Assembly (NCBI GenBank): GCA_028278105.1
Contig: JANQEX010000022.1
Coordinates: 1 to 34,626, forward strand
Direction of reading: 5' to 3'
Origin: Alphaproteobacteria bacterium
Lineage (GTDB): Bacteria; Pseudomonadota; Alphaproteobacteria; UBA9219; RGZA01
DNA: 34,626 nt
The translations under genes were made by a program, and so were the position numbers. The notes below the pieces were generated by a model that saw nothing but the letters and a program-made list of their open reading frames with translations, searched no databases and had not been told where the DNA came from. Below are positions 7,540-20,359 of this stretch, piece by piece (the stretch's first letter is position 1; every line of letters begins with the position of its first letter).

Positions 7540-8316
7540 ATGCAAAATCCGAAGCATGTTGTCATCACCGGCGCATCCAGCGGCCTTGGGCGGGCTTTGG
7601 CCAGACGTTACGCCGCCGCTGGCCTGCGCATGGGCCTGATTGCGCGGCGCGCGGCCCTGTTGCAGGAGCTTGCGGCCGAACTGAAAGTCCGGGGCGCGGA
7701 TGTATGGACCGCCGCCCTGGATGTGCGGGACGCCGAATCCATGAAGAAAAGACTTGAGGAAGAAGACGCCCGCGCGCCCATTGAGCTTCTGATCGCCAAT
7801 GCCGGAATCTCCGCCGGCACGTTCGGCGCGGGCGAGAGCGCGGAACAGACCCGCATGATCCTCGCCACGAATTTCGATGGCGCGCTGAACGCGGTCCTGC
7901 CCGTCATTCCGCTGATGACGGCGCGGGGACGCGGGCAGATCGCCCTTGTTTCCTCCATCGCCGGCTTTCGCGGTTTTCCCGGCGCGCCCGCCTATTGCGC
8001 CAGCAAGGCGGCGCAGCGCATCTGGGGCGAGGGACTGCGCGGCGAGCTTGGGCCGAAGGGCGTGGAGGTAAACGTGATCTGCCCCGGCTATGTCGATACG
8101 CCCATGACGCAAGGCAATCCCTTTCCCATGCCCTTTATCATGAGCGCCGGGCGCGCGGCCGCTATCACGGAAAAAGGCCTGCGGAAAAACCGCGCCCGCA
8201 TCGCCTATCCCTGGCCGATGGGTGCGGCGGCGTGGCTTCTGGCCGCCCTGCCGCCCGCCTGGACCGACCCTCTTCTAAAAAGGGCCCCGAAAAAACCCGC
8301 GATGAAAAGGGCATAA
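7540..8316 (+). CDS. Short-chain dehydrogenase/reductase
   Basis: 'VVITGASSGLGRALARRYA', 'NAG', 'YCASKAA'. Start set at ATG 7540; the upstream part of the ORF is antisense to gmk. Confidence 0.88.
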   Translation: MQNPKHVVITGASSGLGRALARRYAAAGLRMGLIARRAALLQELAAELKVRGADVWTAALDVRDAESMKKRLEEEDARAPIELLIANAGISAGTFGAGESAEQTRMILATNFDGALNAVLPVIPLMTARGRGQIALVSSIAGFRGFPGAPAYCASKAAQRIWGEGLRGELGPKGVEVNVICPGYVDTPMTQGNPFPMPFIMSAGRAAAITEKGLRKNRARIAYPWPMGAAAWLLAALPPAWTDPLLKRAPKKPAMKRA

Positions 8317-8424
8317 AGTTTTTTTGTTGACCCCCTGGACCCTTGCGATCCTCCAAACCCTTCCCCCCCTTGCGCCACCGGCGCGGCCTGCTATAAACGC
8401 GCCACGACGAGTAGTAGGAACCTC

Positions 8425-8847
<423 letters not shown>

Positions 8848-8935
8848 GATTGCGTTGTAAGCAAAGAACGACGAATGGCGTCATTGCAGGGAGGCCGGCG
8901 ACCCGGCTTCAAGGCTTTACGGTTGGGAAAGAGAA

Positions 8936-9089
8936 CCCCTCACCAGCAAGAACTAAGAGTTTAGCCGCTACGCGCCCAAACCCAAGTTCTTGCAACCTCT
9001 CCCTTCCGCCTCCGCTCTACGAGCTACGGCGGACGAATCTCCTTCAAGGACCTCGCCGTAGCTTTAGCGAAAGCGGGCAAGGGGAGAGG
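8936..9089. repeat. Composite palindromic element (GCAAGA..TTTAG module plus CCGCC..GGCGG module)
   Basis: Shares the CCTCACCAGCAAGA(A/G)CTAAG(A/G)GTTTAG module with 19472-19555 (opposite orientation) and the TTCCGCCTCCGCTCT.CGAGCTACGGCGGACG module with 9204+ and 33245+. Confidence 0.85.
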
Positions 9090-9097
9090 AAGAATCT

Positions 9098-9292
9098 CCC
9101 CTCCCCTTGAGGGAGGGGATCAAGGGGTGGGGTCCGCCGGTTGCCCATAGCGTAAATGGCAAGGCTTTGAAGGTACCACGCTCCACCCCTCCCCCAACCC
9201 CTCCCTTCCGCCTCCGCTCTGCGAGCTACGGCGGACGGGCTTGCTCCAAGGACCTCGGCGTAGCCGAAGGCGAAGACGGGCAAGGGGAGGGG
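9098..9292. repeat. ~195-bp composite palindromic element
   Basis: CCCCTCCCCTTGAGGGAGGGGATCAAGGGGTGGGG arm, spacer, inverted arm carrying a nested CCGCC..GGCGG module; homologous along its length to 33137-33331. Confidence 0.88.
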
Positions 9293-9344
9293 AGATCGGT
9301 TGTCCTTTTTCTAAAAGTGCTTTTGAAATTGGCCATAATATTCT

Positions 9345-9384
9345 GGATTGCTTCGCCCCGCCTTCGGCGGGGCTCGCAATGACG
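9345..9384. repeat. GGATTGCTTCGCCCCG..CGGGGCTCGCAATGACG REP-like repeat
   Basis: Hairpin; related copies at 12911-12948 and 13689-13729. Confidence 0.85.
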
Positions 9385-9441
9385 CGGTCAACATGACATC
9401 CCCTTTTACCGTCGGCGCCTTTACGCTATCTCTCTCCCGCC

Positions 9442-12024
9442 ATGCCTGAGAAAATCATCGCCTTCATTGTCGAGGCCGCGCGCAAGCATGCGCGGATCGT
9501 GGCGGCGTTGTTGCTGCCGCTGGCACTGGCCGCGGCTTTTTACGCGGCGACGCATTTTTCGATCAACACCGACGTGACCACGCTGCTGGACGACACGGCG
9601 GAATGGCGGCAGAACGAGATTGCCTTTTTAAAGGCCTTTCCCGAACGGGACGACGTGCTGGTGATCGTCGTCGACGGGCCCGACGGCGTCTCAACCGGAC
9701 TTGCCGCCGAAAAAATCGCCCACGCCCTGAAGGACCGGCCCGACCTTTTCAAAACCGTGCGGCGGCCGGAGGCCCATCCCTATTTCACGCACTACGGGCT
9801 GTTGCTTCTGCCCCTGCCCGACCTTGCCGACGCGACCGACCAGATCATCCGCGCCCAGCCGTTATTGGCGACGCTGGCCGCCGATCCCTCGCCGCGCGGG
9901 CTGTTCGGTCTTTTGAACACCATGGCCGACGCCGTAAAGGCGGGCGCGGCGCAGGTTGCGGATATGAATGTCCTGCTTCAGCGGCTGCACAGGGTTTTGC
10001 AAAAGGTTCTGGCGCATCCAGGGGCCGGGGATGCGTGGGCGGGTCTTTTCGCTTCGGAAAATCCATCAAAGTTTGAGCGGCGGCGCTTTGTCCTCGCCCG
10101 GCCTGTTCTGGATTACGCGGCCCTGTCGCCGGGCGCGGCCGCCAGCGATTTTGTGCGCAAGACGGTAACGGTTCAGGACCTTGAAAACCTCCACGGGGTG
10201 AATGTGCGCCTGACCGGCCCGGTTGCGCTGGCGGACGAGGAATTCGCCTCGGTCACCGACGGCATGCAACTGGCCCTGGCGGTATCTTTGGTTCTGATCC
10301 TCTTCATTCTTCTGGCGAGCCTGCGCAGTTTCCGGCTGATCGTTCCCATTTTGATTACGCTTCTTTGCGGACTAGCCATGACCACGGCCCTTGCGCTGAT
10401 GATGGTGAAGGCGCTCAACCTGATTTCGGTGGCTTTCGCGGTGATGTTCGCGGGCATCGCGGTTGATTTCGGGATTCAGTTCGGCGTGCGCTTTCGTGAC
10501 GCGCATCACGCCTGTCCCCGCCAGGACGACGCCCTGCGGGCCACCGCCAGGCGCATTGCCCTGCCGCTGACCCTGGCCGCGCTTTCGACCGCCGCGGCCT
10601 TTCTGGCCTTCACGCCCACCAGTTATCGCGGCCTGGCCGAGCTGGGGCTTATTGCCGGTTGCGGCATGCTGATCGCCTTCATCCTGAACCTGACCCTCTT
10701 GCCCGCGCTGCTTTGCTTCACCCGCCCACGCCCGGAACCGGAGGCCGTGGGCTTCGGCGTGGCCGCGCCTCTTGACGCGATGATTGAAACAAAGCGCCGG
10801 AACGTGCGGACGCTGTTCGCGGCGCTGGCGGCGATTGGCCTTTTGCTTTGCTTTTTTCTGCGCTTCGACTTCGACCCCCTGAACCTGAAGGACCCGCAGA
10901 CGGAATCCGTTTCCACCATGATGGATCTGTTGAATGATCCCGACACCACGCCCTATACCATCGACATCCTTGCCCCGTCGGAAAGCGACGCTGAAACGAT
11001 GGCCGAAAAGCTTGCCGCCCTGCCTGAAGTGGACAAGGCGCTGACCCTGCAATCGCTCATGCCGCAGGATCAGCCTGAAAAACTGGCTCTTCTGCAAGAC
11101 GTCCGCAGCTTGCTGGCGGTCGGACTGCATCCCGCCACGGTTCTGCCGCCGCCCGGCGCGGAAGAAATCCGCCAAACGGCGCTGGGCCTTGCCGGAAAGT
11201 TGAAGGAACTGGGTCAAGACAGCGCCAGCGCTTCTCTTTTTTCCGAAGACCTGCGGCGGTTTGCCGCCTTGTCCAACGATACCTTGCGGACATCTTCCGC
11301 CAGCATGCGGCGGGAAACGCAGAAGGCTTTGGCCGAGTTGGAGCAACGCCTGACCCCTCACGCGATTGATGCTTCCGGCATTCCCGGCGATCTCCGCGCG
11401 CAATGGGTCACACCGGACGGCCGCGCGCGCATCGAGGTTTATCCCAAGGGCGATCCAGGAAAGCGCGGCGTGCTGGAGCAATTCGCAAAAGCCGTGCGCG
11501 CCCTTGCGCCGGGAGCCACCGGCATGGTGGTTTCGATTCAGGAATCATCGAAAACGATTCGCCTGGCTTTTGTTCAGGCCGCCGTTTATTCCGGTGTGAC
11601 AACCTTTATCCTGCTTCTTCTATTTCTTCGCAATTTTATACACAGCCTGTTTGTAATTGCGCCTCTCGTCCTTGCTTTTATCCTGACTCTTGGCACGGCG
11701 GCGGCTGTCAATCTTCCCATCAATTTCGCAAATATCATTGCCTTGCCGCTGTTATTGGGGCTCGGCGTTTCCTATTCCATCTATTTCGTCGTGTACTGGA
11801 TTCAGGGTCAGAAGCATCCCTTGACTTCCAGCATGGCTCGCGCGGTGCTTGCGAGTGCGGCCACAACCTTTGTGGCTTTTGGGTCACTCTCTCTTTCAAA
11901 TCATCTCGGCACATCATCAATGGGACTGCTTTTGGCGCTTTCCCTGTTTTACGTTTTGTTTACGACTTTCCTTTTCACCCCTGCCTTGTTAGGAAAACCG
12001 GACGCGGAGCACAAGAGTGTGTGA
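9442..12024 (+). CDS. hpnN: MMPL-family RND transporter, HpnN (hopanoid transporter)-like
   Basis: 860 aa, two sets of TM helices; 'LRAQPLLATLAADPSPRGL'-type segment typical of HpnN proteins; MMPL 'MFAGIAVDFGIQFGVRFRD'. Confidence 0.7.
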   Translation: MPEKIIAFIVEAARKHARIVAALLLPLALAAAFYAATHFSINTDVTTLLDDTAEWRQNEIAFLKAFPERDDVLVIVVDGPDGVSTGLAAEKIAHALKDRPDLFKTVRRPEAHPYFTHYGLLLLPLPDLADATDQIIRAQPLLATLAADPSPRGLFGLLNTMADAVKAGAAQVADMNVLLQRLHRVLQKVLAHPGAGDAWAGLFASENPSKFERRRFVLARPVLDYAALSPGAAASDFVRKTVTVQDLENLHGVNVRLTGPVALADEEFASVTDGMQLALAVSLVLILFILLASLRSFRLIVPILITLLCGLAMTTALALMMVKALNLISVAFAVMFAGIAVDFGIQFGVRFRDAHHACPRQDDALRATARRIALPLTLAALSTAAAFLAFTPTSYRGLAELGLIAGCGMLIAFILNLTLLPALLCFTRPRPEPEAVGFGVAAPLDAMIETKRRNVRTLFAALAAIGLLLCFFLRFDFDPLNLKDPQTESVSTMMDLLNDPDTTPYTIDILAPSESDAETMAEKLAALPEVDKALTLQSLMPQDQPEKLALLQDVRSLLAVGLHPATVLPPPGAEEIRQTALGLAGKLKELGQDSASASLFSEDLRRFAALSNDTLRTSSASMRRETQKALAELEQRLTPHAIDASGIPGDLRAQWVTPDGRARIEVYPKGDPGKRGVLEQFAKAVRALAPGATGMVVSIQESSKTIRLAFVQAAVYSGVTTFILLLLFLRNFIHSLFVIAPLVLAFILTLGTAAAVNLPINFANIIALPLLLGLGVSYSIYFVVYWIQGQKHPLTSSMARAVLASAATTFVAFGSLSLSNHLGTSSMGLLLALSLFYVLFTTFLFTPALLGKPDAEHKSV

Positions 12025-16928: not shown

Positions 16929-17879
16929 ATGCCGCCCTTTCCCGCCAAGCTTATCAAGCCCCGGCCCCTTCACCCCCGCTCGCAGATCGGCATCGTGTCG
17001 CCCGCGCGGCATGCCCTGCCCGACGTGATCCAGAGCGGCAAGGCCATTCTGGAAAACATGGGCTATACGGTTTTCGTGCATCCGCAGAACGCGGAACAGG
17101 ACTTTCAGCTTGCCGGCTCCGACGAGGCGCGGGCCGACGCCATCATGGACATGGTGGAAGACCCCTCCATCGACGCCATTCTGGCCCCGCGCGGCGGCAT
17201 TGGATCCTACCGGGTGATCCCGCATCTGAAATTCGACGTGATCGCCGAGCATCCCAAAATCTTCTGCGGCTTTTCCGACCTGACCACGCTTTTGAATACC
17301 ATCACCCTGCGCACGGGACTCGTGACCTTTCATGGCCCGCTTTTGATGAACTTCCTCGGCGAGCACGACGCCTACAACCTGAATTTCTTCATCAAGATGG
17401 CCAGCGGCAAGGTCGTGCCCGGAGAAACGCAGGAGTTCATGCGCACCCAAAGCCTGCGCGACGGCGCGGCGGAAGGACGGCTGATGGGCGGCAACATCAC
17501 CCTGTTGCAGCACATGATCGGCACCAAGGATGATGTTTCAACCGATGGCGCGATTTTGTTTATCGAGGATGACTCGGCCGAAAGGCTCAGCGGCCTCGAC
17601 CGCAAGCTCTGGCATCTCCGCAATGCCGGAAAATTCCAGCGCATCGCGGGGCTGATCGTGGGCGAGTTCGCCGGATTTCAGGAGGACCCCCATGGCGACT
17701 GGGGCCACGGCATCAACGAGCTGGTCATGGACCTCGTGCCCTCGCATGTGCCGGTTTGCGTCAACTTCCCCTGCGGGCACGCCAACACCATGACGACTCT
17801 GCCCCTTGGCGTGCGGGTGAAGTTTGAAACCTCCGCAAAAGGTACGCTTTTGACGCTGGGCGAAAGTCCGTTTGCCTGA
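16929..17879 (+). CDS. LD-carboxypeptidase (peptidase S66)
   Basis: 'QIGIVSPARHALPD', 'AILAPRGGIGSYRVIPHLKFDVI', 'FCGFSDLTTLLN', 'FIEDDSAERLSGLDRKLW'. Start set at ATG 16929; most of the 872 aa ORF upstream is antisense to rluA/asmA. Confidence 0.9.
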   Translation: MPPFPAKLIKPRPLHPRSQIGIVSPARHALPDVIQSGKAILENMGYTVFVHPQNAEQDFQLAGSDEARADAIMDMVEDPSIDAILAPRGGIGSYRVIPHLKFDVIAEHPKIFCGFSDLTTLLNTITLRTGLVTFHGPLLMNFLGEHDAYNLNFFIKMASGKVVPGETQEFMRTQSLRDGAAEGRLMGGNITLLQHMIGTKDDVSTDGAILFIEDDSAERLSGLDRKLWHLRNAGKFQRIAGLIVGEFAGFQEDPHGDWGHGINELVMDLVPSHVPVCVNFPCGHANTMTTLPLGVRVKFETSAKGTLLTLGESPFA

Positions 17880-17970
17880 CGCTCTCGTTCGTGTTAGAGT
17901 CCTTTTTTCAGAACAATCCGGGATCACTTTTGGCGCAAGGAGCCTGGCCCTTGCGCGGACGGAGGAGTGT

Positions 17971-19431
17971 GTGAACGCTGGAATTTCACTGGAGATGCTG
18001 GCCTTCAATCTCAAGTTGATAGGCCACAAAAGCCGCAAAAAGGTTTTGATCAGCGCGGGCAGGCTGGAAAACAAAAAGCGGATGCTTCCCGCCATCCAAC
18101 AGTTTCTGACCCTTGAAGTCGACATCTACACGACCCCCGGCACTCATAAATTCCTGTCCGATTGCGGCATCCCGACGACGCAAATTCACAAAATAACCGA
18201 CCGTCTCGCGCCGAACATCCTGACTTTCCTCAAGGAAAACCGCTTCGACCTCGTCATCAACGTTCTGACCGGCGACGAGGATTACGATGAAGCCTCGGAC
18301 GCCAAGCTGATCCGAAAGCTTTGCATCGAAAACGGCATCCCGCTGATCACCGATTGCGACGTGGGCATCGCCACCCTTGAGCAAATCGTCGCCGACACGG
18401 CCAAAGGCACGTTCCGCTACCGCCTCGCCGACAATACCGAGCCCTGGAACCTTCGCCTGCATTTCATGGAAAAGGTCGAAAGCCTGGGCGGGTTCGCCAA
18501 TCACCACGCCCATTTCGACAAGGCCTACCTGATCAACATGGAAAATCTGCGCATGTCGCAGGTGGACATGCAGAAGAAATGGGAAATCTACCGTTATCTG
18601 AAAGAGAATTATACGCATGACGATCTGATTGAGCGCATCAGCCGCGGCCTGGAGAAGATGATCGCGCAAGGCGTCACCTATTGCCGCACCATGGTGGACG
18701 CCGACAGCACGGTGGGCCTGCTGCCCGTCACGGCGGCCATGGAAGTGAAAAAGCTCTATGCGGGAAAGATTACGTTCGAGGTCGGCGTGCAGCCGTTGCA
18801 GGGCGTACTTGATTCCGCCTCTTTCGAACAATATGCCGAGGCCTGCCGTCTCGCCGATTATTGCGGCGGGCTGCCGTCCCGGGACCGGCCGCGTCCTGAG
18901 GCGCATCTGGATATCGTTCTTGATCTGGCCAGGCGTCTGGGCAAGCCGGTGGACGTGCATGTGGATCAGGAAAACAACCCTCTTGAGGATGAGACCGAAC
19001 TGCTGGCCGCCAAAACCATCGAACACGGGATGCAGGGCCGTGTTTACGCCATCCACGCGATTTCCGTCAGCGCCAAGGACGAGCGCGAGCAGGGCCGCAT
19101 TATCGAAAAAGTGGCCGAGGCTGATCTCGGCGTGGTTGTTTGTCCGGGTGCTGCGCTAAGCATGAAGCCGCTGCCCATGCAGGCGCCGCTTCACAACTCC
19201 ATCGCGCCCTTTTCCAGGCTCCGGGAAGCCGGCGTGCGCTGCTATATGGGCGTCGACAACATTCACGACCTGTTTATGCCCATGACCGACGGCGACATCT
19301 GGACCGAATGCCGCATGCTGATGGAGGCCTGCCGCTTCTACGATATCGACGCGGTGGCGGACTGGGCCTGCGCGAAACCGCCCGCAGCCGCCTTGTTCCG
19401 GCCAAAGGCCACCCGCACAAGCGCGGCGTGA
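17971..19431 (+). CDS. MGS-like (CPSase allosteric-type) domain fused to cytosine-deaminase-like amidohydrolase barrel
   Basis: N-terminal half: 'KKVLISAGRLENKKRM...IYTTPGTHKFLSDCGIPTTQIHKI...FDLVINVLTGDEDYDEASDAKLIRKLCIENGIPLITDCDVGIATLEQI'. C-terminal half: 'HHAHFDKAYL', 'VDVHVDQENNP', 'IHAISVS', 'CPGAALSMKP', 'GVDNIHDLFMPM'. GTG at 17971 is preceded by GGAGGAG (17961-17967). Confidence 0.82.
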   Translation: MNAGISLEMLAFNLKLIGHKSRKKVLISAGRLENKKRMLPAIQQFLTLEVDIYTTPGTHKFLSDCGIPTTQIHKITDRLAPNILTFLKENRFDLVINVLTGDEDYDEASDAKLIRKLCIENGIPLITDCDVGIATLEQIVADTAKGTFRYRLADNTEPWNLRLHFMEKVESLGGFANHHAHFDKAYLINMENLRMSQVDMQKKWEIYRYLKENYTHDDLIERISRGLEKMIAQGVTYCRTMVDADSTVGLLPVTAAMEVKKLYAGKITFEVGVQPLQGVLDSASFEQYAEACRLADYCGGLPSRDRPRPEAHLDIVLDLARRLGKPVDVHVDQENNPLEDETELLAAKTIEHGMQGRVYAIHAISVSAKDEREQGRIIEKVAEADLGVVVCPGAALSMKPLPMQAPLHNSIAPFSRLREAGVRCYMGVDNIHDLFMPMTDGDIWTECRMLMEACRFYDIDAVADWACAKPPAAALFRPKATRTSAA

Positions 19432-19471
19432 AGGGAAATGGGCTGAATATGACATATAGGCTATAAAACCA

Positions 19472-19589
19472 ACCCCTCTCCCCCTTGGGGGAGAGGTTGC
19501 AAGAGCTTGGGTTTAGATGCGAAGCAGCTAAACCCTTAGCTCTTGCTGGTGAGGGAGTACCCTCCCCTAACCCCTCCCAGAGGGAGGGG
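19472..19589. repeat. Composite palindromic element downstream of the MGS-amidohydrolase gene
   Basis: CCCCTCTCCCCC arm, GCAAGAGCTTGGGTTTAG...CTAAACCCTTAGCTCTTGC long hairpin, then CCTCCCCTAACCCCTCCCAGAGGGAGGGG. Confidence 0.85.
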
Positions 19590-19601
19590 AATAAAAATCA
19601 C

Positions 19602-19637
19602 ATCCCCCTCCCTTTGGGAGGGGGATATATTTTTTCC
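19602..19637 (+). terminator. Perfect hairpin ATCCCCCTCCC-TTT-GGGAGGGGGAT followed by a T-rich tract; repeat-derived candidate terminator
   Basis: 11-bp perfect stem, 3-nt loop, followed by ATATTTTTT. Confidence 0.45.
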
Positions 19638-19711
19638 GTTTGTGCCAAAATTTTTTCCCTCCAAAAAATCAACCCTTCTCAACCACAATTCGGCATGCCA
19701 CAATCCGGGCT

Positions 19712-20359
19712 ATGCCCACCTCCCCCCTGCCGGGCGTTCCTGAAACGCCCGACCCGATTTTTGGCATTCTCTTCGGGCTAGGCCTTTGCCTCGCCGCCTA
19801 TCTGCTGGGAAGCATTCCCTTCGGCCTGCTGCTGGGCAAGGGCTTCGGGCTTGGCGATATCCGCAAGACCGGCTCCGGCAATATCGGCGCGACCAATGTT
19901 CTGCGCGCCGGCAACAAGCCCTTGGCGCTTGCCGTCCTGCTGCTGGATGGCGGCAAGGGCGTGTTGGCCGTGCTGGCGGGCCGCGCCATGAATATCGATG
20001 AGGCCCTGCCCGTTCTGCTTGGCATGTGCGCGGTGATGGGGCATGTGTTTCCGGTATGGCTGAAATTCAGGGGCGGCAAGGGCGTGGCGACATCCCTTGG
20101 CGTGATGACCGCGCTTCACTGGCCCATCGGCCTTTGCATGATGGCTGCCTGGCTGGTGATGGCCGCCCTCTTCCGCTATTCATCTTTTTCGGCCTTATGC
20201 GCCTTCGCCGCGGCGCCCGTATTGGCCTGGTATTTCGGGAAGGACATCCTGATCATGCCCGCGCTGGCCCTGGCGGCGCTGATTGCCCTTATGCACCGCG
20301 AGAATATCCGGCGGCTCCTTGCGCGCACCGAAACCAAGATCGGGCAAAAGGCGCAATGA
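19712..20359 (+). CDS. plsY: Glycerol-3-phosphate acyltransferase PlsY
   Basis: 'YLLGSIPFGLLLGK', 'DIRKTGSGNIGATNVLRAGNK', 'KFRGGKGVATSLGV'. Confidence 0.95.
   Translation: MPTSPLPGVPETPDPIFGILFGLGLCLAAYLLGSIPFGLLLGKGFGLGDIRKTGSGNIGATNVLRAGNKPLALAVLLLDGGKGVLAVLAGRAMNIDEALPVLLGMCAVMGHVFPVWLKFRGGKGVATSLGVMTALHWPIGLCMMAAWLVMAALFRYSSFSALCAFAAAPVLAWYFGKDILIMPALALAALIALMHRENIRRLLARTETKIGQKAQ

Follow-up and report, generated by a model that had tools for sequence, protein, structure and literature searches.

The gene fusing a methylglyoxal synthase-like (MGS) domain to an amidohydrolase of the NCBIfam family PRK06886 (AHase) described here lies where a relative of its alphaproteobacterial source carries pyrB and pyrC. 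Taken as a whole, the observations are best explained by assuming, as seems probable, that PRK06886 AHase replaces aspartate transcarbamylase (ATCase) and dihydroorotase (DHOase) by converting argininosuccinate to dihydroorotate and ornithine, gated by the MGS domain where present. With slightly less assurance, this reaction, catalyzed by an MGS-regulated or stand-alone AHase, can be regarded as a second de novo entry into pyrimidine synthesis in several bacterial phyla, an entry that would be free of carbamoyl phosphate in carriers without carbamoyl phosphate synthetase (CPSase) and transcarbamylases, with the guanidino carbon of arginine becoming C2 of uracil.

The MGS-amidohydrolase fusion and its family

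The window, i.e., the whole stretch of DNA analyzed, spans 34,626 nucleotides. Positions 17971-19431 (+ strand) encode a product of 486 residues, with the start and length being those given in an earlier note on this DNA. The GTG start codon at 17971 is preceded by GGAGG at 17961-17965 and is backed by homologues whose N-terminus is MNDGISLEMLAFNLK. The MGS-like domain proposed in the earlier note was borne out by matches to Pfam MGS (PF02142; residues 38-127, E=4e-15, 56.1 bits versus a gathering cut-off of 24.1) and to the MGS part of NCBIfam carB (residues 22-142, E=1e-11). Pfam Amidohydro_1 matched residues 174-455 (E=3e-9) and NCBIfam PRK06886 (NF005365) matched residues 160-467 (E=2e-133, 444 bits versus a curated cut-off of 340). 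According to Pfam and NCBIfam, the product comprises the MGS domain and AHase alone, without the ATP-grasp CPSase and DHOase domains that flank MGS in CAD-type proteins. The features of the gene are as follows.

17971..19431, + strand: MGS-amidohydrolase fusion gene, 486 aa, encoding the proposed argininosuccinate-to-dihydroorotate enzyme (ORF, Pfam, NCBIfam)
18034..18396, + strand: MGS-like allosteric domain, residues 22-142, related to the C-terminal domain of the CPSase large subunit (Pfam, NCBIfam, profile)
18448..19380, + strand: PRK06886 amidohydrolase barrel, residues 160-470 (NCBIfam, profile, AlphaFold2 model)
18505..18513, + strand: HxH metal ligands H179 and H181 (invariant in 80/80 family members)
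18958..18969, + strand: H330-V-D-Q333, metal His and Gln at the position of the CodA catalytic Glu (family alignment)
19054..19056, + strand: H362, metal/general-base His (family alignment)
19255..19260, + strand: D429-N430, metal Asp and AtzC-like Asn (family alignment, profile)

When a profile of 36 homologues was compared with solved structures, the top match was AtzC (N-isopropylammelide isopropylaminohydrolase; PDB 2qt3, 4cqb; 4e-35), with CodA being second, and the MGS part matched the CPSase structures 2yvq and 1a9x. Structure prediction had also been suggested in the earlier note; the AlphaFold2 model obtained (mean pLDDT 87, pTM 0.71) has the deaminases of cytosine and 5-methylcytosine, together with AtzC, as PDB matches, with TM values of 0.61-0.66 (by target).

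The family was surveyed in one scan of 85,488 genomes, which revealed 78 AHase loci. Approximately 38 of these contain the full fusion (Hyphomicrobiales, Hyphomonadaceae, Caulobacter, metagenome-assembled genomes (MAGs) labelled Campylobacterales, Desulfobacterales, Planctomycetota and others), and approximately 40 contain stand-alone hydrolases (Bacteroidota, including Blattabacterium and Saprospira; Sutterellaceae; Necropsobacter; Patescibacteria). AHase sequences are monophyletic relative to CodA-like proteins (support 100/100), with fused (98/95) and stand-alone (98/99) forms comprising separate clades. Because full-length copies (50-85% identity) exist in some 38 other genomes and the fused forms constitute one supported clade, the fusion reported earlier is real, reflecting neither chance nor an assembly product. 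As to whether it belongs to a common, already characterized family, a possibility likewise raised earlier, recurrence in dozens of genomes was seen but characterization was not, NCBIfam listing PRK06886 (NF005365) as 'hypothetical protein.'

Comparison of the active site with those of CodA and AtzC

The metal motifs HAHFDK, VHVDQ, IHAIS and GVDNIHD, pointed out in the earlier note, vary little or not at all among family members. Indeed, H179, H181, H330, H362 and D429 are kept as in CodA in both the fusion and stand-alone clades. At the position of the CodA catalytic Glu (Glu217), however, 78 of 80 AHase family members present Gln (Gln333). As such, the earlier assignment to the CodA type stands for the fold and metal ligands (CodA, PDB 1k6w) but not for the active site. 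AHase also scores far below CodA family cut-offs (fusion gene versus PRK09230: 69 bits, cut-off 483), and AHase family members have either the MGS domain or nothing in place of the N-terminal sandwich of CodA. A cytosine deaminase reading was dropped on the basis of the Glu-to-Gln change and genomic context. The rest of the active-site signature (N335, K203-W204, Q274, D305, K348, E351-H352 and H408-N409) is common to both clades, which suggests, at the level of sequence, that fused and stand-alone forms catalyze one and the same reaction.

AtzC and the AHase family have the HxHxDK, KTIE(N/H)G and DN motifs in common, and the AtzC fold, metal site and Asp-Asn pair are present in the fusion protein, as judged by profile, alignment and model. 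The chemistry proposed below is also akin to that of AtzC, since both would involve hydrolysis of an exocyclic alkylamine off a ring. By contrast, identity is only approximately 22%, AtzC is a catabolic triazine enzyme without an MGS domain, and K203-W204, Q274, K348, E351-H352 and H408-N409 are specific to the AHase family. Genomic context moreover argues for an AHase substrate other than N-isopropylammelide.

ATCase and DHOase in AHase carriers

Examination of gene order in the window revealed ldcA-[MGS-AHase]-plsY-dprA-topA, with the corresponding region in a relative of the same family without AHase reading ldcA-pyrB-pyrC-plsY-dprA-topA. The fusion gene is thus found in the same ldcA-to-plsY slot as is pyrB-pyrC in the relative. 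The edges of this slot are listed below.

16953..17879 (start approximate), + strand: ldcA, encoding LD-carboxypeptidase; bounds the pyrBC slot on the left, upstream of the fusion gene (gene order)
19712..20359, + strand: plsY; bounds the pyrBC slot on the right, downstream of the fusion gene, with dprA, topA and rnr coming next (gene order)

The link to pyrimidine biosynthesis drawn in the earlier note was therefore in the right area. Its comparison with CAD, in which MGS lies beside a dihydroorotase, holds functionally, as the fusion gene occupies the pyrB-pyrC slot, but not in terms of homology to PyrC, as no match to TIGR00857 or TIGR00856 at E<=1e-3 was found anywhere in the genome carrying the fusion gene. 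What the earlier reading missed was the replacement of ATCase together with DHOase and the tie to argininosuccinate. Between the fusion gene and plsY, positions 19471-19640 of the window contain dense GC-rich palindromic repeats, and terminator-like sites in this region exceed expectation (13 versus 5.2).

Across AHase genomes, pyrC_multi scored over the cut-off in 0/59 (20 + 39 genomes) and pyrC_dimer in 0/21. ATCase (TIGR00670) was over the cut-off in 1/59 (0/21 + 1/38), with a second genome being near the cut-off. When ten carbamoyltransferase-type proteins were typed by NCBIfam, seven proved to be ornithine/N-acetylornithine carbamoyltransferases, two (from two MAGs) were ATCases and one was ArgG. 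In the source genome, the sole TIGR00670 match is its own ornithine transcarbamylase, typed as such by NCBIfam (340 bits, cut-off 281). As controls, 395 genomes sampled from the same class were searched, 269 of which had pyrC over the cut-off, and ATCase was over the cut-off in 14/14 control genomes, including that of Caulobacter vibrioides; the AHase carrier Caulobacter sp. SLTY contains neither pyrC nor ATCase. Pooling the pyrC counts (0/59 carriers versus 269/393) gave a p of about 1e-26, a value that ignores relatedness and is indicative only; the class sample alone includes just two AHase genomes and is too small (p=0.10). Dihydroorotate dehydrogenase (DHODH) was present in all 27 AHase genomes searched.

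Single gene absences carry little weight, as draft assemblies and MAGs account for many of the AHase genomes. Two MAGs are exceptions, with one (L054) containing an intact AHase together with a true ATCase and the other, a Euryhalocaulis MAG (L073), containing an ATCase/DHOase-like pair. In the latter, the AHase sequence (8001-9456) is broken, being split between two frames, either because the gene decayed once redundant or because the assembly is in error. Full-length pyrC-like matches below the cut-off (190-253 bits) were seen in four MAGs, and a truncated pyrC-like fragment, also below the cut-off, in one further genome (G409). In at least 13 carriers, no CarB was over the cut-off and no transcarbamylase match was found, such that entry into the canonical pathway is impossible for them. 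It is very likely that the AHase family functionally replaces ATCase plus DHOase.

Arginine and pyrimidine genes near AHase

Genes of arginine and pyrimidine metabolism were identified in the vicinity of AHase in several lineages. The Patescibacteria contig L091 contains argG-MGS, AHase, a DHODH-like gene, pyrE and pyrF, in that order, and a single contig (L072) holds, inside a 15-kb stretch, pyrK, two pyrD genes, udk, AHase, argH and argG-MGS. At L095, two arginine-dihydrolase/dimethylargininase-like genes surround AHase, together with argG-MGS, a DHODH-like gene and pyrF. The argH gene adjoins AHase in 11 loci, mostly from Bacteroidia, as does pyrE in Sutterellaceae. In Weeksellaceae (L075-L093), AHase is followed by a conserved pair of genes encoding an arginine-deiminase-like protein (approximately 304 aa, unnamed in NCBIfam) and CtlX, a citrulline hydrolase.

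In Patescibacteria-type genomes, ArgG carries a CarB-like MGS domain as a C-terminal fusion (L091, 6801-8438; L072, 13224-14870; L095, 8760-10367). This is a second MGS fusion, on an enzyme feeding the proposed route. The DHODH-like proteins of approximately 360 aa encoded beside AHase (L091, 9422-10504; L095, 4984-6060) score far below every DHODH equivalog cut-off, and possibly represent a divergent DHODH for that route. A reading in terms of purine or folate metabolism, based on the resemblance of neighbors of approximately 210, 360 and 546 aa to PurN, PurM and PurH, was abandoned when these proved to be PyrE, DHODH-like and ArgG-MGS, respectively.

Two genomes of Saprospira grandis, one of them complete, contain ArgH yet are without ArgG, CarB over the cut-off or any transcarbamylase. 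In Blattabacterium AMAZOsp, CarB, N-acetylornithine carbamoyltransferase, ArgG, PyrD and PyrE are present, and a search of the whole chromosome for ArgH, ATCase and DHOase found none; the Blattabacterium ArgG score was just below the cut-off. Among the genomes searched for both, ArgG and ArgH were both under the cut-off only in a Desulfobacterales MAG. Argininosuccinate is the compound common to ArgG and ArgH, and we infer that it is, quite likely, the AHase substrate.

The MGS domain as a candidate nucleotide sensor

MGS residues K35, T55, T58, K74 and N97 correspond to E. coli CarB K954, T974, T977, K993 and N1015. In each of the 13 fusions aligned, five of the six CarB effector residues are present, with T1017 being Leu or Met. 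K954, T974, N1015 and T1017 are residues of the nucleotide effector site in addition to the other two. Thr977 and Lys993 are reported to be crucial for UMP control of CPSase (PMC6245113). The MGS domains of ArgG-MGS and MGS-AHase cluster together, apart from the sampled CarB domains (95/91), and hence a CarB-like sensor was apparently placed on two enzymes that would belong to a single branch.

With five of the six effector residues retained, nucleotide gating, as the earlier note had surmised, is likely, and it is likely too, judging by sequence, that the MGS domain senses a pyrimidine nucleotide. A response to UMP, IMP or ornithine would each be compatible with the sequence. The fused MGS would accordingly be a CarB-derived nucleotide sensor, probably for UMP, acting on the committed step.

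A proposed route from argininosuccinate to dihydroorotate

In the route proposed here, argininosuccinate would arise either from citrulline and aspartate through ArgG or from arginine and fumarate through ArgH working in reverse. Argininosuccinate forms cyclic anhydrides, the six-membered one being dihydroorotate with an ornithyl-amino group at C2. AHase would close the aspartyl beta-carboxylate onto the guanidine and then hydrolyze the exocyclic C-N bond, much like the AtzC-catalyzed release of isopropylamine from a triazine ring, to yield L-dihydroorotate and L-ornithine. The computed mass balance is exact (argininosuccinate, C10H18N4O6 = dihydroorotate, C5H6N2O4 + ornithine, C5H12N2O2). From the genomic evidence, dihydroorotate is somewhat more probably than otherwise the direct AHase product. 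PyrD, PyrE and PyrF would convert it to UMP. In alphaproteobacteria such as the source, ornithine transcarbamylase would use carbamoyl phosphate to regenerate citrulline from ornithine; in the Saprospira and Patescibacteria found here, without CPSase or transcarbamylases, arginine would instead provide uracil C2 through its guanidino carbon.

The same pathway could also rely on other chemistry, with linear argininosuccinate being hydrolyzed to N-carbamoyl-L-aspartate and ornithine and the ring being closed in a second half-reaction or by an unrecognized cyclase. Hydrolysis of a guanidine is simple for an amidohydrolase fold and the same genomic evidence applies, yet this is unlikely, given that no DHOase was over the cut-off in 59 genomes and none was found in the complete Blattabacterium AMAZOsp chromosome, meaning that a separate cyclase would need to be new and universal among carriers. 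It is more doubtful still that AHase acts solely as a non-orthologous dihydroorotase, with an ornithine-type transcarbamylase having widened its specificity to make carbamoyl-aspartate. Such a role would suit a gene in the pyrBC slot, a fold that includes DHOases and an MGS domain beside a DHOase, reminiscent of CAD. However, the 13 or more carriers with neither a transcarbamylase match nor CarB over the cut-off would have no maker of carbamoyl-aspartate from carbamoyl phosphate, the ground on which a plain DHOase plus a promiscuous transcarbamylase was ruled out, and the ArgG, ArgH and arginine-dihydrolase neighbors would be left unexplained. Finally, AHase could be, in line with the earlier note, an MGS-gated enzyme that deaminates or hydrolyzes a base or ureide, with the carriers being pyrimidine auxotrophs that rely on salvage. 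This agrees with the CodA/AtzC fold but is highly improbable, considering the Gln at the position of CodA Glu217 in 78/80 members, the retention of DHODH in 27/27 genomes, which makes salvage alone unlikely, the pyrD, pyrE and pyrF genes adjoining AHase in some lineages, and the presence among carriers of Hyphomicrobium, which grows on mineral C1 media.

Relation to known systems

Like the canonical pathway (CPSase, PyrB and PyrC, or CAD), conversion of argininosuccinate by AHase would feed dihydroorotate to PyrD, PyrE and PyrF and would place an MGS-type allosteric domain on the committed step. The two differ in that ATCase and DHOase are absent here, in that aspartate is proposed to enter via ArgG (or fumarate via ArgH) rather than via ATCase, and in that carbamoyl phosphate would be dispensable in some carriers. 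The MGS fold and five of six nucleotide-site residues are those of the allosteric domain of the CPSase large subunit (1a9x, 2yvq), but the domain has moved onto AHase or ArgG, with T1017 being Leu in the family. In Thermococcus kodakarensis, ArcE and ArcB generate carbamoyl phosphate using citrulline derived from arginine, and pyrimidine synthesis continues to run through ATCase (PMC13260591). In that arginine synthetase route, as in the one proposed here, arginine can supply pyrimidines without CPSase; in the latter, by contrast, both carbamoyl phosphate and ATCase would be dispensable.

A search of the open-access literature for the PRK06886 family, MGS-amidohydrolases, alternative DHOase or pyrimidine routes and Saprospira pyrimidines revealed no prior report, although one may exist among preprints or in subscription journals. 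In textbook accounts, the way to UMP universally leads through ATCase and dihydroorotase, and carbamoyl phosphate is the obligatory donor. A widespread alternative, if true, would redraw this map by adding a second, partly carbamoyl-phosphate-free entry, would give the uncharacterized PRK06886 family a name, would tie pyrimidine supply to arginine in carriers and would account for the gaps seen in the genomes of Blattabacterium, Saprospira, Hyphomicrobium, Sutterellaceae and Patescibacteria.

The retention of ArgG and loss of ArgH in some Blattabacterium strains has so far been read as host-symbiont collaboration (PMC9603385). If the proposed route is true, retention of ArgG for pyrimidines would offer an alternative reason in strains without ArgH. 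In Blattabacterium AMAZOsp, itself without ArgH, ArgG (L156, 9382-11184) is 601 aa long and includes an N-terminal stretch of approximately 200 aa that lies outside any NCBIfam match.
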